NCBI RefSeq assembly: GCF_900116555.1
Contig: NZ_FPAT01000003.1
Span: forward strand, 186,001-250,000
Length of the DNA: 64,000 nucleotides
From: Actinopolyspora lacussalsi subsp. righensis
GTDB lineage: Bacteria > Actinomycetota > Actinomycetes > Mycobacteriales > Pseudonocardiaceae
Direction of reading: 5' to 3'
Under the pieces are notes generated by a model that was given only the letters and a program-made list of their open reading frames with translations, had not been told where the DNA came from and made no database searches. Below are positions 9,740 to 38,121 of this stretch, one piece after another. How positions within the stretch are numbered: position 1 is the stretch's first letter; each line of letters starts with the position of its first letter. The translations under genes and the position numbers were made by a program.

Positions 9740-9929
9740 TCGCCAGGAAGGACCGCCAGTGAGCGGCAGGGACCGCGAGCACACCCGCTTCGGGCGACTT
9801 CGAATCCCGCACAGCGGTAAAACCTGCGCCAAAAGCAACTTCGACGCAGTTGCCGCCGCCAGGTCCACCGCTACCGGAGCGGCTGCTCTTGCGCCATGAC
9901 AGACCGGTTGAACCCTGCACTTCGAGCAT
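9720..9929 (-). CDS. DUF397 protein, copy 1
   Basis: A 69-residue DUF397 protein with the hallmarks WRKSSRSG, GNCVEVA, VAVRDSKSP-like TAVRDSKSPEAG and VPAAHWRSFL. DUF397 proteins pair with XRE/DUF5753 regulators in actinobacteria; in several studied cases the small partner antagonises the regulator. It is the last of three tandem copies behind such a regulator, 11 nt downstream of copy 2. Confidence 0.92.
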   Translation of the reverse strand: MLEVQGSTGLSWRKSSRSGSGGPGGGNCVEVAFGAGFTAVRDSKSPEAGVLAVPAAHWRSFLASVRGEA

Positions 9930-9940
9930 CCTCGGCTCCC

Positions 9941-10171
9941 TCAGCTGCCGTACTCGTAACGATCACTGTGCAATCCGCTCAAGAAAGATCGCCATTGAGC
10001 GGCGGACACCGCGAGTACTACCGCATCGGACGACTTCGAGTCCCGCACTGCGGCGAAACCTTCGCCAAAGGCAACCTCGACACAGGTGGTACCACCGTTG
10101 CTCCCACCGGTGGAGTAACTGCTCTTACGCCAAACAAGACCAGCCGAGTTCCGCGTTCTAAGCACCACCAC
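9941..10171 (-). CDS. DUF397 protein, copy 2
   Basis: A 76-residue DUF397 protein. It keeps WRKSSYS, TCVEVAFG, AAVRDSKSSDA and QWRSFL, and is the most diverged of the three copies: the glycine loop has Ser-Asn, and GNC is replaced by TTC. It sits 3 nt downstream of copy 3, so translation is likely coupled. It arose by tandem duplication, as the other two share more residues with each other. Confidence 0.92.
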   Translation of the reverse strand: MVVLRTRNSAGLVWRKSSYSTGGSNGGTTCVEVAFGEGFAAVRDSKSSDAVVLAVSAAQWRSFLSGLHSDRYEYGS

Positions 10172-10174
10172 TCC

Positions 10175-10399
10175 TCAGCTACCGCTTCCGTAGTGACCAC
10201 TGTGCACCTTGTCCAAGAAGGATCGCCACTGCACAGCCGGAACCGCGAGCACGCCCGCATCGGGTGATTTGGAGTCCCGCACAGCGGTGAAATCTTTGCC
10301 GAAGGCGACCTCGACGCAGTTGCCGCCGCCGGTGCCTCCGCCCCCGGAACGGCTGCTCTTTCGCCATGCTGTCAACAAGGAGTTCTCGATGTCGCTCAC
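10175..10399 (-). CDS. DUF397 protein, copy 3
   Basis: A 74-residue DUF397 protein (WRKSSRSGG, GNCVEVAFG, TAVRDSKSPDAG, QWRSFLDKV). Its ATG overlaps the stop of the XRE regulator by 4 nt (ATGA), the usual coupled arrangement for this family. It is probably the cognate partner of that regulator; copies 1 and 2 follow in the same direction. Confidence 0.94.
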   Translation of the reverse strand: MSDIENSLLTAWRKSSRSGGGGTGGGNCVEVAFGKDFTAVRDSKSPDAGVLAVPAVQWRSFLDKVHSGHYGSGS

Positions 10400-26171: not shown

Positions 26172-26213
26172 CATCCACGACCACCCTGCCGGCATCCACG
26201 ACCACCCTGCCGG
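26172..26213. repeat. Two exact 21-bp tandem repeats
   Basis: The unit CATCCACGACCACCCTGCCGG occurs twice in a row in the rpiB-nei gap, just upstream of the nei ribosome binding site. It may be simple slippage. Confidence 0.8.
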
Positions 26214-26274
26214 CGCCGACCGCCGCGGGGCCGCGGAACAGGGCTGCCCGTCTGACCGGCGGTGGCGGCGGGGA

Positions 26275-28619: not shown

Positions 28620-31193
28620 GTGGCTCCGCCGAACCTGACCCGCCAACAGGCAGAGCAGCGCGCCGAACTGCTGCGCGTGCACTCCTACGCGATCGAGCTC
28701 GACCTGTCCGACGGCGCGGGCGGGGAGAACGTGGAGGTCTTCGGATCGAAGACGACCGTGCGGTTCACCGCCCGGCAGGGCGCCACCACGTGGATCGATC
28801 TGATGGCCGCGCGGGTGCACCAGGCCTCCCTCAACGGCGTGGACCTGGATCTGTCCGACTACGACGAGGAAACGGGGATCGCGCTCCCCGACCTGGCGGA
28901 GCAGAACGAGCTGGTCGTACGCGCCGACTGCTACTACACCAACACCGGTGAGGGGCTGCACCGTTTCGTCGATCCCGTGGACGGCGGGGTGTATCTCTAC
29001 AGCCAGTTCGAGACGGCCGACGCCAAACGGATGTTCGCCTGCTTCGACCAGCCCGACCTCAAGGCGAGTTTCCAGCTGACGGTGACGACGCCGAGCACGT
29101 GGCGGGTCGTTTCGAACTCCCCGGGCGCGATCACCGCTTCCAGCGAGACCCGCGTCACGCACACCTTCGAGGCCACGCCCCCGATCTCCACCTACCTGGT
29201 GGCGCTGGTGGCGGGCCCCTACGCGGAGTGGCGCGACGTCTACAGCGGCCCGGAGGGCGAGATCCCGCTCGGGCTCTACTGCCGTGCCTCGCTGGCCGAG
29301 CACCTGGACCCCGAGCGACTGTTCACCGAGACCAAGCAGGGATTCGGCTTCTACCAGCGGGCGTTCGGCGTGCCCTACCCGTTCGCCAAGTACGACCAGT
29401 GCTTCGTGCCCGAGTTCAACGCGGGTGCCATGGAGAACGCGGGCTGCGTGACCTTCCTGGAGGACTACGTCTTCAGGTCGAGGGTCACCGGGTACTTCTA
29501 CGAACGCCGCGCCGAAACGGTGCTGCACGAGATGGCGCACATGTGGTTCGGCGACCTGGTCACCATGCGCTGGTGGGACGACCTCTGGCTGAACGAGTCC
29601 TTCGCGACCTGGGCCAGCGTGCTCGCGCAGTCCTCGGCCACCGAGTACACCCACGCCTGGACGACCTTCGCGAACGTGGAGAAGTCCTGGGCCTACCGGC
29701 AGGACCAGCTGCCCTCCACGCACCCGGTGGCAGCCGACATCGAGGACCTGCAGGCCGTCGAGGTCAACTTCGACGGGATCACCTACGCCAAGGGCGCCTC
29801 GGTGCTCAAACAGCTGGTGTCCTACGTGGGGCTGGAGAACTTCCTCAGCGGGTTGAAGATCTACTTCGACAGGCACGCCTGGGGCAACGCACGGCTCTCC
29901 GACCTGCTCACCGCGCTCGAGGAGGCGTCGGGGCGGGACCTGTCGTGGTGGAGCGCGCAGTGGTTGGAAACCACGGGGCTCAACACGGTGCGCCCCGAGT
30001 TCGAGACCGACGAGCGGGACCGCTTCACCGAGTTCACGGTGCTGCAGGGACCCGCGAGTCCGGGCGAGGGCGAGTACCGCACGCACCGCATCGCGGTGGG
30101 CGTCTACGACGACGACCCCACCACGGGCAAGCTGGTCCGCACGCACCGGGTCGAGCTCGACATCTCCGGTGAGCGCACCGACGCCCCCGAGCTCGTCGGA
30201 GTACCGCGCGGCAAGCTCGTGCTGGTCAACGACGACGACCTGAGCTACTGCACGATGCGGCTGGACTCACGGTCGCTGGCCACCCTGGTGGAGCGGATCG
30301 CCGACATCGACCAGTCGTTGCCGCGCGCGTTGGGCTGGTCGACCGCCTGGGAAATGACCAGGGACGCGGAGCTGCGGGCGCGCGACTTCGTCAGCCTCGT
30401 GCTCGGCAAGGACAGCGACGGCGGCATCGGAGGCGAATCCGAGATCGGCGTGGTGCAGCGGGTCCTGATGCAGGCGCGCACGGCACTGGGTGCCTATGCC
30501 GATCCCGGTTGGCAGCCGGAGGGGTGGCAGCGCTACACGGATCGGCTGCTGGAGCTGGCACGTGCCGCCCGGCCCGGTTCGGACAACCAGCTCGCCTTCG
30601 TCAACGCGTTGACGGCCGCGAAGCTCGACGAGGACAAGCTCACGTTGCTGCGCGGTTGGCTCGACGGTTCGCGGGTGCTGGAAGGATTGGTGGTGGACAC
30701 CGACCTGCGCTGGCAACTGCTGCACGCCCTGGTGGCACACGGCGCTGCGGACGAGTCCGAGATCGACGCGGAGCTGGCAGCGGACTCCACCGCCACCGGC
30801 AGGCGGCGCGCGGAGCGCGCGCGTGCGCTCGTGCCCACCCCCGAGGCCAAGGAACGGGCGTGGCAGCGAGCCGTGCACGACGACGAACTGCCCAACGCCA
30901 TCAACGAAGCGATCATCTCCGGGTTCCAGCATCCCGCCCAGCACGAGCTGTTGCTCCCCTACGTGCGGCGTTACTTCGACGAGATCGACGAGGTGTGGCA
31001 ACGGCGCTCCAGCGAGCGGGCACAGCCGACGGTGATGGGGCTGTTCCCCTCCTGGTCCGTGGATCCCGGGACGGTCGAGGCCGCGGACACCTGGCTCGCC
31101 GGAGAACACCCCTCGGCCCTGCGTCGCCTGGTCTCGGAGGGCCGTGCCGGTTTGGTGCGCGCGCTGGCGGCGCGCGAGTTCGACCGCTCCTGA
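28620..31193 (+). CDS. pepN: Aminopeptidase N
   Basis: An 857-residue M1 zinc aminopeptidase of the cytoplasm. The substrate-recognition motif GAMEN is at about 269-273. The zinc site HEMAH (about 302-306) plus Glu in NESFA (about 325) gives HEXXH-x18-E. The C-terminal ERAP1-like helical domain is complete. GTG is preceded by GAGG at 7-10 nt. It works downstream of Clp proteases by clearing short peptides. A strong hairpin follows the stop. Confidence 0.97.
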   Translation: MAPPNLTRQQAEQRAELLRVHSYAIELDLSDGAGGENVEVFGSKTTVRFTARQGATTWIDLMAARVHQASLNGVDLDLSDYDEETGIALPDLAEQNELVVRADCYYTNTGEGLHRFVDPVDGGVYLYSQFETADAKRMFACFDQPDLKASFQLTVTTPSTWRVVSNSPGAITASSETRVTHTFEATPPISTYLVALVAGPYAEWRDVYSGPEGEIPLGLYCRASLAEHLDPERLFTETKQGFGFYQRAFGVPYPFAKYDQCFVPEFNAGAMENAGCVTFLEDYVFRSRVTGYFYERRAETVLHEMAHMWFGDLVTMRWWDDLWLNESFATWASVLAQSSATEYTHAWTTFANVEKSWAYRQDQLPSTHPVAADIEDLQAVEVNFDGITYAKGASVLKQLVSYVGLENFLSGLKIYFDRHAWGNARLSDLLTALEEASGRDLSWWSAQWLETTGLNTVRPEFETDERDRFTEFTVLQGPASPGEGEYRTHRIAVGVYDDDPTTGKLVRTHRVELDISGERTDAPELVGVPRGKLVLVNDDDLSYCTMRLDSRSLATLVERIADIDQSLPRALGWSTAWEMTRDAELRARDFVSLVLGKDSDGGIGGESEIGVVQRVLMQARTALGAYADPGWQPEGWQRYTDRLLELARAARPGSDNQLAFVNALTAAKLDEDKLTLLRGWLDGSRVLEGLVVDTDLRWQLLHALVAHGAADESEIDAELAADSTATGRRRAERARALVPTPEAKERAWQRAVHDDELPNAINEAIISGFQHPAQHELLLPYVRRYFDEIDEVWQRRSSERAQPTVMGLFPSWSVDPGTVEAADTWLAGEHPSALRRLVSEGRAGLVRALAAREFDRS

Positions 31194-31206
31194 GCGGAAG
31201 CAAGCA

Positions 31207-31252
31207 CGGGTGGCCGGGCCCGCGAAGCCTCCTTCACCGGCCCGGCCACCCG
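31207..31252 (+). terminator. 14-bp hairpin after pepN
   Basis: CGGGTGGCCGGGCC (31207-31220) and GGCCCGGCCACCCG (31239-31252) are perfect complements with an 18-nt loop, 13 nt after the pepN stop. Confidence 0.85.
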
Positions 31253-31409
31253 ATTTCCGGTGCGAGGACACGCCGCTGCCCGCTCCCCACCGGACGGCAC
31301 CGCCACGAGCACGCCCTTCCGGGTGGCATCCGGCGAAGATCACCCAGTCGCAGGATCACCGCGCGTAGGCTTGTGATCGCGCACCGTCCAACACGTCGTG
31401 GAGCGGCCG

Positions 31410-32156
31410 ATGCCCGAGCTGATAACCGCCATCGCCACGCTGTTGTGGCCGCTGATCACCCTGCTGGTGCTGCTGCTGTTCCGACAGGCGATCGGAAGAG
31501 TGCTGCGTACCGCCGAGAAACGCGAGCTGGAGTTCGAGGTGGGCGGGCAGCGGCTCACCTTCCACGAGCTCAACGATCAACAGAACGAGATGATCCAGGA
31601 CCTGCAGCGGCAACTCAGCATCCTGAGCAGTCGACTGGACGAGCGGGAAGCGGTGCCGGCGGGCACGGTCCCGGGCAGGGGCGGGGACGGGGCGAGCACG
31701 CCCGAGGAACCCTCCGGGTGGGAACTGGACGGCGATCCCGAGTCGGCCGAGCTGCCCCCGGTACAGGCACCGGTGGGTCCGGAACCGTTCGCCGTGCTGT
31801 GGGTCACCGATCGCGCCCAGAGCCACGCGCTGCTCGTGGAGCAGCTCCGCAACAACGGGGTACGGGTGACGATCACGGCCACCACGTCGGAGGCGGTGGC
31901 CGAAGTGTCCAAACGGCCCTACCGCGTGGTGGTTTCGGACATGGCCCGCAAGGAGGACGGGCAGTGGATCACGGACGCGGGCCTGGCGCTACTGCGCGAG
32001 CTGCGCGACCTGGGCATGGAGATACCGGTGATCGTCTTCGGCACGCAGCGCGGGCAGCTGCAACACGCCAACCAGGCTCGCCAGCTGGGCGCCGTGGCCA
32101 CCACGTCGTCGTCCTACGAGATGTTCCGACACTTCCAGAACTTCGGACTGCTCTGA
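31410..32156 (+). CDS. Membrane-anchored protein with receiver-like domain
   Basis: A 248-residue protein. Residues about 5-28 form one membrane segment (ITAIATLLWPLITLLVLLLF). A heptad-like helix follows (about 50-80, HELNDQQNEMIQDLQRQL), then a flexible acidic/Gly/Pro linker. The C-terminal 120 residues look like a response-regulator receiver: FAVLWVTDR, an Asp in YRVVVSDMARKEDG at the phospho-acceptor place, and IPVIVFGTQ. The Lys usual after the last strand is not evident. ATG 31410 has GGAG upstream. There is no kinase nearby and the role is unknown. Confidence 0.78.
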   Translation: MPELITAIATLLWPLITLLVLLLFRQAIGRVLRTAEKRELEFEVGGQRLTFHELNDQQNEMIQDLQRQLSILSSRLDEREAVPAGTVPGRGGDGASTPEEPSGWELDGDPESAELPPVQAPVGPEPFAVLWVTDRAQSHALLVEQLRNNGVRVTITATTSEAVAEVSKRPYRVVVSDMARKEDGQWITDAGLALLRELRDLGMEIPVIVFGTQRGQLQHANQARQLGAVATTSSSYEMFRHFQNFGLL

Positions 32157-32299
32157 GCGTTCCCCGCCGTCACCGGGACTGGATCGTGATCGGGTGTTTC
32201 GGCACACCCCGGGTGTTCCGGCGAGTCCGCCGCCGGAACACCCGGAGCCGCGGCCCGAAGCCCTTCCAGTGGAAATCGGGGCCTTCCGTGGAAACCGGG

Positions 32300-32806
32300 T
32301 CAGTGATGCTCACCTTCGGTTTCGAACTCGGTTCCGGCCGCGTCGGAGAGCATCCGCAACGCGCTGATGAGTCCGTCGATCAGGTCACCCTCCTTGAAGG
32401 AGGCGACCATGTTCATCACGGCCAGGTTGCAAGTGCGGTCGGGTACCCGCCGATAGGCCTGTTCGCCGGTGACGATTTCCAGACAACGCTGGGCGGGCGA
32501 GACGGCGATGAGCACACCGCGCGATGCGCGGCCGCCCAGGCCGGCGTGGATCTGCTCGGCACGATCACGGGTCCGCTCCCCCAGCCCACCGAGGTAGATC
32601 GCGAATTCGAGCCCGGTCGTGCGGGTGGAAAGTGTCAACGCCTCATCCAACCGCGCGAGCTCTCCCGGGGAGAACGGCAGTTTCGGGCGCTCCGGCTCGA
32701 TACGGCGCGCGATCGACAGCCGACCACCCGCGGTAAGAGCGTGTCCCGCCTCGAGTTCGGCCGGGTTCACGTCCGCCGCTGTTCGGGTCATCTCACCAGT
32801 TGCCAC
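32300..32806 (-). CDS. DUF5130 (TPM-like) protein
   Basis: A 168-residue soluble protein of the DUF5130 family, similar in pattern to TPM domains: LPFSPGELARLDEALTLS, TGLEFAIYLGGLG, RGVLIAVSPAQRCLEIVTG and a C-terminal helix EGDLIDGLISALRMLS. No signal peptide is seen. GTG at 32806 has GGGGAGG 5 nt upstream and overlaps the preceding small membrane gene by 14 nt, so they form a pair. Function unknown. Confidence 0.85.
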   Translation of the reverse strand: MATGEMTRTAADVNPAELEAGHALTAGGRLSIARRIEPERPKLPFSPGELARLDEALTLSTRTTGLEFAIYLGGLGERTRDRAEQIHAGLGGRASRGVLIAVSPAQRCLEIVTGEQAYRRVPDRTCNLAVMNMVASFKEGDLIDGLISALRMLSDAAGTEFETEGEHH

Positions 32807-33041
32807 GAGCGCCTCCCCTTGCGGTACCGGTCTCCGACTCGGACTCCGCGTGTTCGGTAGGTGGGCTGCTGGGGCTCACACCGGCAGGGTTCGCCACCCA
32901 CAGCACCGACGGGAAGTTCCACTCCCCGTTGGGGCGGTAACGGGCACGGAACAGTCTCGGCCACAGCACCATCAACATGACGAGGCCGTAGACAGCCGCC
33001 GGTATCACGGCCAAGACGAGTACGGTCTGCACGACAGTCAC
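32793..33041 (-). CDS. Small one-helix membrane protein
   Basis: An 82-residue protein with one hydrophobic segment (about 3-27, VVQTVLVLAVIPAAVYGLVML), then WPRLFRARYRPNGEWNFPSVLWVANPAG and a polar Ser/Glu/Gly tail. The motif RPNGEWNFPSVLW is well conserved in actinobacteria as I remember it, always beside a DUF5130 gene. The GTG at 33041 is the likeliest start, although its ribosome binding site is weak. Function unknown. Confidence 0.72.
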   Translation of the reverse strand: MTVVQTVLVLAVIPAAVYGLVMLMVLWPRLFRARYRPNGEWNFPSVLWVANPAGVSPSSPPTEHAESESETGTARGGARGNW

Positions 33042-33392
33042 ACCAGCACGGTATCCGATTTCCCCCACTAGCGGTCGACTACCTGTGCTTCCTGCCTCAC
33101 CCACTGGGAAAACCTCGCCCTGTTCCCGGCACAACCGGTCCGTGACGCCGTGAAGTAATCGCGCGGTCACGAAATACACACCACGACCGACACCATTCCT
33201 TGCCCCCGGGCATCTTCGGTGCTGCTTTCGCCCCATTCGGAACCGCCATTCGGAGCCGAACCGGACGGCCGCTCGGAGGGGTCGAGTTGGCGGCTTGTAC
33301 CGGACAGTTTCCGATTCTAGATTTCACCTGTATGGATCTTGCGTAATTGATCGCATCCATGACAGGAGCAGTTCCGAACACGTGAGGAAACA
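33042..33392. other. Divergent promoter region before the GVRIS-repeat gene
   Basis: A 351-nt gap. From about 33300 it is unusually AT-rich for this genome (for example TTCTAGATTTCACCTGTATG), as expected of a promoter or of acquired DNA. No gene is supported. Confidence 0.45.
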
Positions 33393-33941
33393 ATGATGAC
33401 CATCGAAACCGGGAACAGCGGCGCCAATTCGATCTTTCCGTGTGACGGATTCATCTCGCATGAATACGCTGCGTACACGAAACAGGTGATCCGAACCGGG
33501 ACCGGGACCGGAAACCGGCTCCGGACTGGGGTGCGAATCAGTGGCAGGGAAGGCGTGCGGATCAGCGGACGCACCGGGGTGCGGATCAGCGGCAGGAGCG
33601 GCGTGCGAATCAGCGGACGCGCGGGAGTACGGATCAGCTCCCTGGGCGGGGTGCGGATCAGCGGCCGTCATCGAGGAGTACGGATCAGCGGCAGCCACGA
33701 CTCCCGCGAGGCGGACTCCGGCGCGGGCGTGCGGATCAGCGGCAGCACCGGAACGGGCGGAGCGAGCGAACGCCGACCTGTCACGCCGCGCTGCGCCGAG
33801 CGGCGCTGCGCCGAGCGGCGAAGGGGCGGGTGGCAACCGCTCGCACCGGCGGGAGGCACACCGCGACCCGGGCAGAGCCGCGGTGCTCATGGGGACGGGC
33901 CGAACATCGAGAACGACGGCCCGCCTCACCGTTCAGTGTGA
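33393..33941 (+). CDS. GVRIS-repeat protein, unknown family
   Basis: A 182-residue protein with three parts: a 45-residue lead (polar, one Cys at 17, HEYAAYTKQVI, no signal peptide), a repeat region and a basic tail. Gly-Val-Arg-Ile-Ser occurs at residues 46, 54, 62, 70, 78, 86, 95 and 112. The first six are exactly 8 residues apart (GVRISGRE, GVRISGRT, GVRISGRS, GVRISGRA...). The DNA copies differ mainly at synonymous positions (GTG/GTA, CGA/CGG, AGT/AGC, GGC/GGA, AGG/CGC), so the peptide has been selected. ATG-ATG follows GAGGA. The tail ends 9 nt inside the convergent HNH gene. It could be a multi-core peptide precursor or a beta-repeat scaffold; neither is proven. Confidence 0.75.
   Translation: MMTIETGNSGANSIFPCDGFISHEYAAYTKQVIRTGTGTGNRLRTGVRISGREGVRISGRTGVRISGRSGVRISGRAGVRISSLGGVRISGRHRGVRISGSHDSREADSGAGVRISGSTGTGGASERRPVTPRCAERRCAERRRGGWQPLAPAGGTPRPGQSRGAHGDGPNIENDGPPHRSV
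33528..33743 (+). repeat. 24-bp coding repeats of the GVRIS protein
   Basis: Six contiguous 24-bp units and two more spaced units encode Gly-Val-Arg-Ile-Ser-Gly-Arg-x. Units are similar but not identical; most changes are at third codon positions. Not a CRISPR: units abut with no spacers. Confidence 0.9.
33789..33818 (+). repeat. Two exact 15-bp tandem repeats
   Basis: CGCTGCGCCGAGCGG occurs twice in a row in the tail of the GVRIS gene and encodes the repeated RCAER. Being exact, it looks recent, unlike the older 24-bp units. Confidence 0.8.
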
Positions 33942-34583
33942 TGCGACCTCGCCGAGATAGGGCAACCACATCGGATCGGGGTCGCTCGCGCCGGCCAACA
34001 GCCGCCAGTGCCTGCCGCGCGGCGCCTTCGGCGTCTCCGGAAGGCGCCACCCCAGCTCACGAAGCGTCCGATCGGCCTTTCGATGATTACACCGCGTACA
34101 ACAGGCCACACAGTTCTCCCAGCTGTGTGCACCACCCCTGCTCCGAGGAACCACATGATCGATGGTCTCCGCACGAACGCCGCAGTAAACACAGCGATGG
34201 TTGTCCCGCAACATCAAGGCGGAACGGGACAGCGGAACCCGCCCGCGATAGGGAACGTGCACGAACCGGCTCAGTCTGATTACCGAGGGAACCTCGATGC
34301 TGTGCGTCGCCGAATGCAACATCGATCCAGCGGAATCACCGTGCACCACTTCGGCCTTGCCGCAGACGATCAACACGATCGCCCTGCGCACGGGCAGTGC
34401 GGTCAACGGTTCGAACGTCGTGTTCAGTAGTAGGACCCGCCGCTTCGGCCAAGCGCCCACGCCCTCCGATCTGTCGGCGGAGGCCGACAGCCGGTGACCC
34501 CGCTTACGTCCGGCAGGACGCGCGGGGGCGCGGGGCGGCGCCGCCTTCGGAGCGCCGCACGGGATCGGTTTTCGGTCGGGCAC
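33933..34583 (-). CDS. HNH endonuclease family protein
   Basis: A 216-residue protein. After a Pro/Arg-rich N-terminus come RVLLLNTTFEPL and the VPVRRAI-like LPVRRAIVLIVCGKAEVV, typical of actinobacterial HNH proteins. The HNH/zinc motif is CVYCGVRAETIDHVVPRSRG followed by WENCVACCTRCNHRKADRT. GTG at 34583 is chosen because GGAGG lies 7 nt upstream; GTG 34460 would also open the conserved part. It matches the HNH gene next to glbO in Mycobacterium. The substrate is unknown. It is convergent with the GVRIS gene. Confidence 0.9.
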   Translation of the reverse strand: MPDRKPIPCGAPKAAPPRAPARPAGRKRGHRLSASADRSEGVGAWPKRRVLLLNTTFEPLTALPVRRAIVLIVCGKAEVVHGDSAGSMLHSATHSIEVPSVIRLSRFVHVPYRGRVPLSRSALMLRDNHRCVYCGVRAETIDHVVPRSRGGAHSWENCVACCTRCNHRKADRTLRELGWRLPETPKAPRGRHWRLLAGASDPDPMWLPYLGEVASH

Positions 34584-34832
34584 TCGACCACCTCCACCGT
34601 GTATGTGCATCAGTCGAACACAGAACCCGCCCGGAACGCACGTGTGATCCGCGCCGCACGACCGACCGGATATCGAAAATTCGACGACGAGAAGGCAACA
34701 CGATCGGAAATGTACGGTTATCCGTGGCGACGAGGCCACTCCGATCATTCGGAACCAATCGATTCGGCACGCCACCGACCGCCCGTGTCATGTGAACGGA
34801 CGAACGTTTTCGATACCCGTATCGTCCAGGGA

Positions 34833-36950
34833 GTGAACGAGGTTCAGTCATTGCCGGAGTCATATCCGAACGCGCATCGCACGGACACGATGGAAACGCC
34901 GCACGGGCTCGAGGTGCGCGATCCCTACCGCTGGCTGGAGGACCCTTCGGACCCGGCCTGCGAGGCGTGGTCACGTGAGCAGGACCGGCTCACCGACGCG
35001 TGGCTGCGCGGCCTGCCCCGGCGCGAGGAGATCGCCGAGCGGCTGAGCGCACTGCTGCGCACCGGGTCGGTGTCGGCGCCGGTGTGGCGCAACGGCCGCT
35101 CGTTCTTCACCAGACGGGAGAGCGACCAGGAGTTCCCGGTGCTGTTCGTGCGTGAACCGAGCGGAACGGTCCGACAACTGCTCGACGTGACCGAACTCGA
35201 TCCGTCCGGGCTGACGACGCTGGACCGGTGGACTCCCAGTCCGGAAGGGGACCGACTCGCCTACCAGGTCTCGAGCGGCGGGGACGAGGAGTCGCTGCTG
35301 CACGTGCTGGACGTGACCACGGGCGAACTGCTGGAAGGTCCCATCGACCGGTGCCGCTACTCCTCGGTGGCCTGGCTTCCCGGCGGTGCCGAGTTCTACT
35401 ACGTCCGCAGGATCGCCCCCGAGCTGGTCCCCGAGGACGAGCGACAGTTCCACCGCCGGGTGTGGCTGCACCGGGTGGGAAGCGACCCGGACGAGGACGT
35501 GCTGGTCCACGGCGAACAGCTGCATCACACCTACTTCTACTCCGTGAGCCTGTCCCCGGACGGTAGCTGGCTGCTGGTGCACGGCAGTCCGGGAACGGCA
35601 CGTCGTGATTCGCTGTGGATAGCGGACCTGCGAAACGGTGAGCGCGTTCCCGAGCTGCGACGCGTGTTGGACGACGAGCAGGGCGTGCGGGCGAGCGCTC
35701 GGGTGGAACCGGACGGGTGGATGTACATCCGCACCACGCTGGACGCCCCGCGCGGCAGGCTCTGCGTCGCCGATCCGGACCGTCCGGACCCGACCGACTG
35801 GACGGAGCTGATCCCGGAGGATCCGGAATCGGTGCTGGAGACCTCGCGTTGGCTCGACAGCACGGGGTCGGATCCACGGCTGGCCGTGTTGCGCACCGCA
35901 CACGCGGTCTCCGAACTGACACTGCACGACGCGGGCACCGGCGAGCTCCGTCGTGCGGTGCCGTTGCCCGGCACCGGCCAGGTGACCACGGTGAACACGG
36001 TGGACACCCGGACCACGACCGGACGTGACCGCATCTGGCTCGGCTGGACCGATTTCGCCACTCCACCGTGCGTGTACTCGTACTCGGTGGCCACGGACGA
36101 GACGGAGGCGGTGGAACACGCCCCCGGCCAGGAGGCCGTACCGGAGATAACCAGCACCCAGCTGAGTTACAGCTCGGCGGACGGCACCACGGTACGGATG
36201 TTCGTGCTTGCTCCCGCCACACCACCGCCCGGGCCACTGCCCACGCTGCTGACGGGGTACGGCGGTTTCGCACTGTCCAGGGAACCCGCCTACACCCCCA
36301 ACGCGCTGGCGTGGGTAGCCGCTGGCGGCGTGTGGGCGTTGCCCTCGTTGCGCGGTGGTGCCGAGGAAGGGGAACAGTGGCACCGAGCGGGCATGCGGGA
36401 GAACAAACAACGCGTTTTCGACGACTTCCACGCCGCGGCCGAGCACCTGATCGAGCGGGGCTGGACCACCTCGGACCAGCTGGCCATCAGCGGTGGCTCC
36501 AACGGCGGGCTGCTCGTGGGGGCGGCGCTGACGCAACGCCCCGAGCTGTACCGGGCAGTGGTCTGCTCGGCGCCGCTGCTGGACATGGTGCGCTACGAGA
36601 AGTTCCTGCTCGGCAGATTGTGGAGCGAGGAGTACGGCAGCGCCGAGAATCCCGAGGAACTCGAATGGTTGCTGTCCTACTCGCCGTATCACAACATCGA
36701 CGAGGCCACCGAGTACCCGGCGGTGCTGCTGTCGGTGTTCGAGTCGGACAGCCGGGTCGATCCGATGCACGCACGCAAGATGTGCGCGGCACTGCAGCAC
36801 GCGACGAGTTCACCACCGGACAAACGCCCCGTACTGCTCCGGCGCGAGACGGAGGTGGGGCATTCGGCACGTTCGGTCTCCCGTAGTGTGGGCATGGCGA
36901 CCGACCATTTCGCGTTTCTCGCGGAAGCCACCGGACTCATCCGGAAGTAG
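34833..36950 (+). CDS. Prolyl oligopeptidase family serine peptidase (S9A)
   Basis: A peptidase of about 705 residues. The N-terminal beta-propeller starts at HGLEVRDPYRWLEDPSDP. The C-terminal alpha/beta hydrolase has the nucleophile in SGGSNGGLLVGAAL (about 556), the Asp in ESDSRVDPMHARKM (about 640) and the His in EVGHSARS (about 676). PSLRGGAEEGEQWHRAG is typical of S9A. GTG 34833 is the working start; TTG 34851, with GAGG upstream, is a good alternative. It cleaves short peptides in the cytoplasm. A hairpin follows the stop. Confidence 0.93.
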   Translation: MNEVQSLPESYPNAHRTDTMETPHGLEVRDPYRWLEDPSDPACEAWSREQDRLTDAWLRGLPRREEIAERLSALLRTGSVSAPVWRNGRSFFTRRESDQEFPVLFVREPSGTVRQLLDVTELDPSGLTTLDRWTPSPEGDRLAYQVSSGGDEESLLHVLDVTTGELLEGPIDRCRYSSVAWLPGGAEFYYVRRIAPELVPEDERQFHRRVWLHRVGSDPDEDVLVHGEQLHHTYFYSVSLSPDGSWLLVHGSPGTARRDSLWIADLRNGERVPELRRVLDDEQGVRASARVEPDGWMYIRTTLDAPRGRLCVADPDRPDPTDWTELIPEDPESVLETSRWLDSTGSDPRLAVLRTAHAVSELTLHDAGTGELRRAVPLPGTGQVTTVNTVDTRTTTGRDRIWLGWTDFATPPCVYSYSVATDETEAVEHAPGQEAVPEITSTQLSYSSADGTTVRMFVLAPATPPPGPLPTLLTGYGGFALSREPAYTPNALAWVAAGGVWALPSLRGGAEEGEQWHRAGMRENKQRVFDDFHAAAEHLIERGWTTSDQLAISGGSNGGLLVGAALTQRPELYRAVVCSAPLLDMVRYEKFLLGRLWSEEYGSAENPEELEWLLSYSPYHNIDEATEYPAVLLSVFESDSRVDPMHARKMCAALQHATSSPPDKRPVLLRRETEVGHSARSVSRSVGMATDHFAFLAEATGLIRK

Positions 36951-36960
36951 CAGGTCAGCG

Positions 36961-36985
36961 GCGGGTGCTTCACAGGAGCACCCGC
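36961..36985 (+). terminator. 9-bp hairpin after the S9 peptidase
   Basis: GCGGGTGCT and AGCACCCGC pair perfectly around a 7-nt loop, 10 nt after the stop. Confidence 0.75.
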
Positions 36986-37140
36986 GCTCGCATCGTGGAC
37001 GGCGGGGCGTTCACGAAGCTCGCTCGACAACGCCGGGCGCACCGGCCCACCCGTCGGATCGCCGAAGCGCACGTGTGGGAGGCCCCACTCGTACGCCGAC
37101 CGTGAAGAACTTTCCAACGTCCGCGTGGAGCCCCGAAACC

Positions 37141-38121
37141 ATGACGACCACGTTGCCCCTGGCACAGTCCCACTGCTCGGACGATTCGAGCCGATGGTGC
37201 GAGACCGTCTTCGACTGGACCAGCAACGCGTGGCTGGCCAACTACTCGGAGATGCTGATCGCCACCCCGCTGCGGATTCTGCTGATCGTCGTGGTGGCGT
37301 TTTTGACTCGCTACATCCTGCACCGGATCATCACCAGGCTCAGCCGCACCAACGGCGAGGCACCGAAGCTGCTGCAGCCACTGCGGGAACGGCGTGGCGA
37401 GGCGGTATCGGGCGAGACGCTGGCCGAGCAGCGGAGCCAGCGAGCACGAACACTGGGCTCGGTGCTGAAGTCGGTGATCAGCTTCGTGGTCTTCGTGTTC
37501 GCGGGTTTCTACGTGCTGCGACAGTTCGGCGTGGATCTGGCACCGTTGATCGCCTCGGCCGGAATCGTCGGTGTCGCGCTGGGGTTCGGCGCGCAGAACC
37601 TGGTGCGCGACTTCCTGTCCGGCATGTTCATGATGATCGAGGACCAGTACGGGGTCGGCGACTGGGTGGACCTCGGTGAGGCCGGCGGTACCGTGGAGAC
37701 GGTGGGACTGCGAGTCACCACGCTGCGCGACATCAACGGCACCGTCTGGTACGTGCGCAACGGCGAGATCCTGCGGGTCGGCAACTCCAGTCAGGGCTAC
37801 GCGGTCGCGGTGGTGGATCTGCCCGTGGCACACAGCAGTGACGTGGCGCGCGCGCAGGAGGTGGCGCAGTCGGTCGCGGCCTCGGCGGCACAACTGGAAC
37901 CGCTCTCCAAGGACGTACTGGAGAAGCCGGAGATGCTCGGTATCAACCAGATCACCTCGGATACGATCACGCTGCGGTTGACCGCCAAGGTGCGTCCGGG
38001 ACAGCAGTGGGCCGTGCAGCGCCTGCTCCGCGCCGAGATCAAGCGGGCCTACGACGAGGCGGACATCAAGCCGCCCTACCCGGCTGGGCGCTTGATGCCG
38101 GAACCAGGCGAACAGCAGTGA
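37141..38121 (+). CDS. Small-conductance mechanosensitive channel (MscS family)
   Basis: A 326-residue membrane channel that releases solutes on osmotic downshock. Helices lie at about 38-58 ([15 protein letters not shown]) and about 105-125. The pore helix is [28 protein letters not shown], followed by the beta domain [19 protein letters not shown] and [14 protein letters not shown] cytoplasmic linker of about 45 charged residues lies between helices 1 and 2. The C-terminus is a typical alpha/beta MscS domain. ATG has GGAG about 10 nt upstream. glbO starts 25 nt further on, so the two may be cotranscribed. Confidence 0.93.

Follow-up and report, generated by a model that had tools for sequence, protein, structure and literature searches.

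A vertically inherited family of Arg-centred pentapeptide-array genes next to an HNH gene in Actinopolyspora and related genera

The array gene, its control region and its neighbours

We analysed a window of 64,000 nucleotides from Actinopolyspora lacussalsi subsp. righensis (contig NZ_FPAT01000003.1), in which a gene encoding a pentapeptide array is flanked by ctaJ and an HNH endonuclease-domain gene. The features of the locus are:

32796..33071 (start codon approximate), minus strand: ctaJ (cytochrome aa3 oxidase subunit), locus marker; NF050118 above cut-off
33287..33323, plus strand: promoter-like core TTGGCGGCTTGTAC, from conservation and spacing
33295, plus strand: TTGTAC, -35-like hexamer, 17-nt spacer to TAGATT
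33318-33323, plus strand: TAGATT, -10-like hexamer, from conservation and spacing
33322..33342, plus strand: 21-bp conserved block TTTCACCTGTATGGATCTTGC, presumed transcription start or mRNA 5' end
33382..33391, plus strand: ribosome binding site region GTGAGGAAAC; many relatives have an AGGAGG-type site close to the ATG
33393..33941, plus strand: pentapeptide-array gene, 182 aa, from the ORF, homologues and dN/dS
33393..33527, plus strand: N-terminal part, residues 1-45, weakly constrained within Actinopolyspora
33528..33740, plus strand: eight GVRIS units, from motif positions and purifying selection
33528, 33552, 33576, 33600, 33624, 33648, 33675 and 33726, plus strand: starts of the GVRIS units, 15 nt each
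33741..33938, plus strand: C-terminal tail, about neutral in Actinopolyspora by dN/dS
33936..34775, minus strand: HNH endonuclease-domain gene (PF14279/PF01844), tail-to-tail neighbour and locus marker

The ORF translation carries GVRIS at residues 46, 54, 62, 70, 78, 86, 95 and 112, exactly where an earlier note, made from the letters of this DNA, had placed it. The same note had described the differences among the copies as mostly silent, and the eight 15-nt copies indeed vary solely at third codon positions. Its strong ribosome binding site corresponds to the region directly 5' of the ATG, and its AT-rich upstream region to a drop in GC content to 0.576 in 33000-33499. The proposal of a 45-residue leader-like N-terminus was borne out in part: a counterpart is present in the homologues, but it is poorly constrained within Actinopolyspora. 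Its apparent lack of a signal peptide, as given in the note, is a judgement by eye. In relatives from other genera, the N-terminal parts, compared by eye, often have in common an aliphatic-T-[RLH]-[SPL] motif. According to a protein search, the array protein is present as a single copy in its own genome, and an Actinopolyspora homologue (G007) is 86% identical to it over residues 1-118. Tandem Repeats Finder picks up the GVRIS array in the window DNA and, at other places, a 234-bp unit repeated 2.7 times with 71% matches (9743-10367) and a perfect 21-bp tandem unit in 2 copies (26172-26214).

A similar -35/-10-like architecture was recognized by eye at 103 loci (defined below), and this conservation, together with the spacing of the hexamers, suggests that the core would function as a promoter. 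The generic sigma-70 promoter scan made no call on the region upstream of the array gene. The 21-bp block, TTTCACCTGTAYGGNYCTTGC, is located 68-76 bp 5' of the chosen ATG at 91 of the 103 loci. Among 397 genomes of the order, 57 have the exact block, each a single time, and all of these belong to the array-gene family; the reversed block, taken as a control, gave 0 among the matches listed for the 397 genomes. In the window's own genome, the block is the sole site at up to 3 mismatches. These properties are consistent with a dedicated operator or a 5'-end signal. A folded RNA leader appears unlikely: 15 aligned leaders are conserved only at the 21-bp block and the ribosome site. In 43 of 91 minimum-energy folds, the block pairs at least in part with the 20 nt directly 5' of the ATG, and Rfam yielded no match in 33150-34000.

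The usual gene order is pepN, regulator, DUF5130, ctaJ, array gene, HNH, S9 peptidase, MscS and glbO, with losses. Pfam agrees with the earlier description of the nearest neighbours as an HNH gene and a prolyl-oligopeptidase-type gene, both of backbone character. The products encoded in 28620-38118 of the window (M1 peptidase, regulator, DUF5130, CtaJ, HNH, S9 peptidase and MscS) include no modifying enzyme, in line with what had been noted from the letters (Pfam for 8 proteins, NCBIfam for 7). In the relatives, the conserved clusters consist of the same genes, with no RiPP enzyme or leader protease among the identified neighbours. Coupling of the array gene to HNH was rejected, since HNH occurs in 60 of 61 genomes irrespective of the array gene. 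The same applies to the S9 peptidase, which is not at the locus in array-positive Actinophytocola, Actinokineospora, Kibdelosporangium and A. mortivallis, and occurs without an array in L125 and L148.

In several genera, and also in some genomes of a second family (see below), a gene for an MFS exporter of the secretion-effector type is located divergently between the array gene and ctaJ. At one such locus (L129:6568-7764) it is of the PF05977/TIGR00900 type; elsewhere it has been lost or relocated. This adjacency looks ancestral. We rejected an obligate partnership: when 16 array-positive genomes with no exporter beside the array gene were tested, 12, including that of the window, had no orthologue of at least 46% identity (a line of our own choosing), and since only 4 keep one elsewhere, the exporter is not required.

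Distribution and unit types of the family

In line with the earlier note, the window protein has no match to a described family in Pfam, NCBIfam or PADLOC, the last giving 0 families for six members of the array family. No description of this family was met in the searched open-licence literature. A protein search with the window gene found a match in 19 of 61 genomes, its own included; the match in G047, a genome of another family, shares no neighbours with the locus and was treated as due to chance. By synteny, in turn, an array gene occupies the slot on the ctaJ side, tail-to-tail with HNH, in 33 of the 37 genomes of its family, the exceptions being G010, G011, G012 and G036, where none lies beside HNH. 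When this slot is read, most genomes of the family prove to hold a gene with a different unit. The sequence search thus partly misses the family (19/61 vs 33/37 by synteny) owing to the low identity between the dialects.

For the description of the units we used 103 distinct loci drawn from 169 ids (the window and L032-L199), after leaving out duplicates, outgroup loci, gene-less loci and blocks with more than 4 mismatches; one array gene left out in this way is that of G031 (GIRVT x15). Together they contain 1773 units by pattern. The units are specific to lineages and include GTRVT (773), GVRIS (536), SVRIT (289), GVRIH, GIRVN and others. A gene has between 2 and 60 copies (median 15), with small arrays in A. 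mortivallis (L037) and Halopolyspora (L094), two units each, and in S. rectivirgula, three units. Linkers measure 1-5 residues in 1560 of 1670 gaps and up to 30 in the others. The period is 8 in 503 of the 1670 gaps, with 6, 9, 10 and longer also common, and in L041 periods of 6, 8, 9 and 10 are mixed within one protein.

An array gene is present at 70 of 80 named loci (the best 80 of 320), 65 of which showed at least 3 units in an automatic scan; the other five are L094, L145 and L118, together with L093 and L127, for which the twin loci L037 and L061, respectively, were read. On the tree of the HNH proteins from these best 80 of 320 loci, the ten array-less loci form one clade. With absence counted as a label besides six unit types, the seven labels require 6 changes, which is the minimum, compared with a mean of 44.2 when the labels are shuffled; we assigned the labels of L093, L118 and L127 manually, support is weak for 18 of the 77 inner branches, and the tree covers the named loci, outside which lie dialects such as GVRIE, GTRIT, GVRVT and GIRVT. 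The six changes imply vertical inheritance of the unit with rare replacement of the whole array. We thus found a vertically inherited family in which a pentapeptide of the form x-[V/T/I]-Arg-[I/V]-[S/T/H/N/E] occurs in 2-60 copies, its units being near-invariant within a gene and its linkers mostly short, little constrained and variable in length. On the same tree, L151, titled Rhodococcus rhodnii NRRL B-16535, falls within Kibdelosporangium and has a nearly identical array; this record is possibly mislabelled or mixed.

A second family of the order, possibly Nakamurellaceae, has genes for proteins of 28-56 residues in the corresponding slot in 11 of 17 genomes. These proteins carry 2-8 looser variants of the unit with Gly as the fifth residue: RGTRVG x7, RGSRIG x5 in two genes, RGARIG x6, GTRVGF x6, AVRVGR in four tandem genes, and still looser versions such as RGGRFGF x3. 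Separate small array genes are arranged in tandem in L212 (four), L202 (two) and L208 (two), each preceded by a ribosome-site-like sequence (in L212, reverse-complement 402-1212). The tandem genes of L212 and L202 each stop exactly at a unit, and in L208 an unread stretch lies within both arrays.

Eighteen loci of other families showed no array in a short-ORF scan that recovered 10 of 11 second-family arrays. The phylum profile search (198 genomes) gave the window's own genome and 3 weak others, the latter with no motif array. At E up to 1e-4, a class search over 296 genomes yielded matches in 46; among 15 loci inspected, one was a family member, two had Arg hexad runs, and the remainder resemble low-complexity or chance matches. 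The hexad runs, short QTRVGR and GTRLTT stretches in L260 and L264, belong to other members of the class and may be simple DNA repeats. A mobile origin was rejected, as the exact 21-bp block is absent from viral contigs and the plasmid and phage matches examined (3 of 16 records) represent other repeats.

Constraint on the units

The window gene was compared with those of A. alba, A. mzabensis and A. xinjiangensis. In these three comparisons, dN/dS amounts to 0.21, 0.13 and 0.24 for the repeat part, but to 0.51, 1.23 and 0.89 for the N-terminal part and to 1.00, 1.04 and 0.84 for the C-terminal tail, indicating that selection in Actinopolyspora falls on the repeats. Variable sites of the repeat part are distributed over codon positions 1/2/3 as 2/3/11, 9/6/30 and 10/8/20. 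This concentration on the sense third positions identifies the sense strand as the coding one and rules out an antisense ORF as the true gene.

The same picture emerges from adjacent units of 99 genes with at least 4 units each, where the pentamers are identical in 1543 of 1690 cases. In a count in which only Arg was required and anchors were chosen partly by the motif pattern, core positions except Arg gave pS 0.520, pN 0.036 and pN/pS 0.070, whereas pN/pS at linker positions 6 and 7 is 0.71 and 1.21. A cruder count with register breaks shows a much weaker contrast (core ratios 0.43, 0.46 and 0.70; spacer 1.07, 0.81 and 0.79), because misaligned blocks are compared. Across the 103 loci, entropy at codon positions 1, 2 and 3 of the units is 0.085, 0.040 and 0.982 bits, conditioned on the motif pattern. 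With silent sites so far diverged, the uniformity of the peptide does not come from fresh DNA duplication.

These values bear out the earlier suggestion of selection on the peptide rather than DNA slippage (core pN/pS 0.07, repeat dN/dS 0.13-0.24). The earlier note had set unit variation without synonymous bias against its own suggestion; what we observed is a strong synonymous bias, and a frame that is kept in homologues across related genomes. A DNA-level tandem repeat or binding-site array with no protein role, or a slippage artefact, would agree with the detection of the array by Tandem Repeats Finder, but its probability is close to nil and we consider it ruled out by the codon data: variation is carried by the third position, pN/pS is very low although only Arg was required, and frame and motif are maintained across genera. 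Borg elements are reported to possess in-frame tandem repeats which give disordered regions, evolve rapidly and formed recently (PMC9879509). The arrays are similar to these in being tandem repeats at the protein level, but differ from them in their far-diverged silent sites and in their synteny over two families.

Arg makes up 20.8% and Lys 0.2% of the array residues, a composition that would suit an Arg-rich binder of polyanions (RNA, DNA or polyphosphate). RG/RGG-box proteins are characterized by Arg-Gly repeats; GTRVT arrays whose linkers contain Arg share this feature, as does the second family, in which RGTRVGRGTRVG and similar arrays look like RG boxes. Yet, the net charge per unit is not conserved: the median is 1.41 in GTRVT genes and 1.38 in GVRIS genes, but 0.07 in SVRIT genes (range -0.68 to 1.11), whose arrays are about neutral and lack the RG spacing. 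We therefore regard a polyanion-binding role as quite improbable.

Possible roles of the array

Of the roles considered, we tentatively favour, at somewhat less than an even chance, a multivalent array of short motifs over a β-helical fibre or a peptide precursor. The protein would be flexible, multivalent and, as judged by eye, cytoplasmic, and all its pentapeptides would serve as the same short motif for binding, each a short strand that makes contact chiefly through its invariant Arg. Its target would be either one partner or the same motif in another chain. Copy number would tune avidity, and the array would cluster or titrate its partner; a mutated unit would be selected against as a break in a co-operative array and not merely as the loss of one dose. 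By our reasoning, selection on each unit would go beyond what redundant doses give. A shift of the partner or of the self-interface would lead to replacement of the whole array and so to lineage-specific units.

The strongest argument for such a motif array is the near-frozen pentapeptide set against near-free, length-variable linkers, together with genes of only 2-3 units; small arrays and tandem small genes suit motif dosage more than a rigid fold. It also agrees with the distribution of unit types on the HNH tree of the best 80 of 320 loci, where the seven labels need no more than six changes, and with the AlphaFold model of a hexad relative, which, from a shallow alignment, shows no confident fold (mean pLDDT 40). 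On the other hand, the partner is itself hypothetical, and a conserved external partner should preserve one motif, whereas the motif differs by lineage.

The C-terminal tails may bear on turnover of the protein. An LAA C-terminus is found at 27 of the 103 loci, which are related to one another and do not represent independent cases; the other 76 end otherwise, the window protein with RSV. The LAA tails resemble, but do not copy, the tmRNA tags found in 12 genomes, as in the case of a CKNDFALAA tail, the tmRNA tag of the genome concerned being AEPKSQREFALAA. Genome-encoded tails resembling the tag of the same genome also occur in L054 (QNDFSLAA), L059 (KNDFALAA), L050 (GDFALAA) and L062 (SEYALAA). 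This likeness to the cell's own tag suggests that, in some lineages, the protein would be quickly removed by ClpXP. The absence of a degron-like tail from most loci, that of the window protein among them, counts against the motif-array proposal.

Structural comparisons bear mostly on an ordered β-helical fibre, a solenoid or a trimeric needle-like form, with V and I pointing inward, Arg and Ser/Thr outward, and identical units stacked in ladders; units would then be identical within a gene and might drift together between lineages. An AF2 model of an S. spinosa octad relative, also from a shallow alignment, shows regular 5-residue strands and 3-residue turns with low-to-moderate confidence (pTM 0.65, mean pLDDT 57, block means 61-75 over residues 21-130), which would suit a fibre, as well as the β-repeat protein that the earlier note gave as its alternative, and speaks against a flexible motif array. 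So do the matches of L124 (31.2) and L201 (28.3) to PF00132, the left-handed β-helix Hexapep family, above the Pfam gathering cut-off of 27. The cut-off is not reached by the window protein or by L106, L155, L136 and L168, all real arrays, and other library matches of the relatives are sub-threshold repeat look-alikes. Relatives such as RGTRVG x7 fit the PF00132 sequence pattern; the family differs from it in its periods of 8-10, long linkers, lack of an enzyme domain and lack of a confident helix model.

Sequence look-alikes include a phage central-spike chain (8kea_D, 3.6e-6) and, weakly, VgrG (0.051, 0.022), but such repeat matches are easily fortuitous, and repeats of ribosomal proteins were matched in the same search as 8kea_D. 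In the PDB, no sequence matches the window array itself (residues 1-118) at a value below 0.069. Mycobacteriophages Squirty (gp51, L271:888-1955) and Frankie (gp59, L269:1415-2317) encode long SA[RH]VxAxx octad arrays followed by a DUF7666 domain, with a period and alternation similar to those of SVRIT arrays. The array family shares with these octads, and with spike and VgrG proteins, the 8-residue period and alternating aliphatic residues, SVRITARD resembling SARVVARG, and octads of the SARVxAxG type thus lend the fibre some support. In contrast to octad needles of the gp5/VgrG type, the arrays have irregular linkers and no spike or DUF7666 domain was seen; the promoter block is not found in viral contigs, and the phage matches are look-alikes of 27-33% identity. 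Also at odds with a fibre are linkers of 1-30 residues, the mixed periods of L041, the little constrained linker position 6, genes of 2-3 units that are too short for a helix, and the low confidence of the hexad model. A fibre is, in our view, rather unlikely, and it keeps even this standing because replacement of units across a lineage is what would be expected of self-stacking strands, which we see as the main objection to a motif array.

A multi-copy peptide precursor, prohormone-like or of the RiPP type, from which pentapeptides would be released as a signal or antimicrobial, appears unlikely. Multi-core RiPP precursors (e.g., graspetides) and multi-copy neuropeptide precursors are built of identical tandem cores with variable spacers, and pheromones have lineage-specific sequences. 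The array family is similar in its N-terminal part, near-free spacers and tandem short cores of lineage-specific sequence; the tandem small multi-unit genes of the second family and the divergent MFS exporter beside the gene in part of both families also fit a precursor. In contrast to RiPP precursors, it has no modifying enzyme or dedicated protease among the identified neighbours, its linkers hold no constant cleavage site, and every unit is strongly constrained, apparently more than redundant doses would need. The MFS orthologue is absent in 12 of 16 genomes at the 46% line, and the S9 peptidase is not linked. The earlier idea of a precursor cut near Arg or Gly thus found no backing: no constant cleavage site in the linkers and no modifying enzyme among the identified neighbours came to light, and many genomes with an array have no S9 peptidase at the locus.

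The gene family, partly overlooked by ordinary sequence search, is now exposed by synteny. Its arrays are old (pS 0.52 between adjacent units), yet nearly every unit has been kept, which makes them an unusually clean natural experiment on the homogenisation of identical-motif arrays and on what they bind, and the lineage dialects represent ready-made specificity swaps. The family may possibly be a new class, a bacterial counterpart of multi-copy prohormones or motif-array scaffolds, a suggestion we would not yet call probable: a homogenised Arg-centred pentapeptide array, making up most of the protein and conserved in each unit, switched as a whole a few times over two families and equipped with its own single-copy promoter block, which would speak a lineage dialect to a co-evolving partner or receptor.
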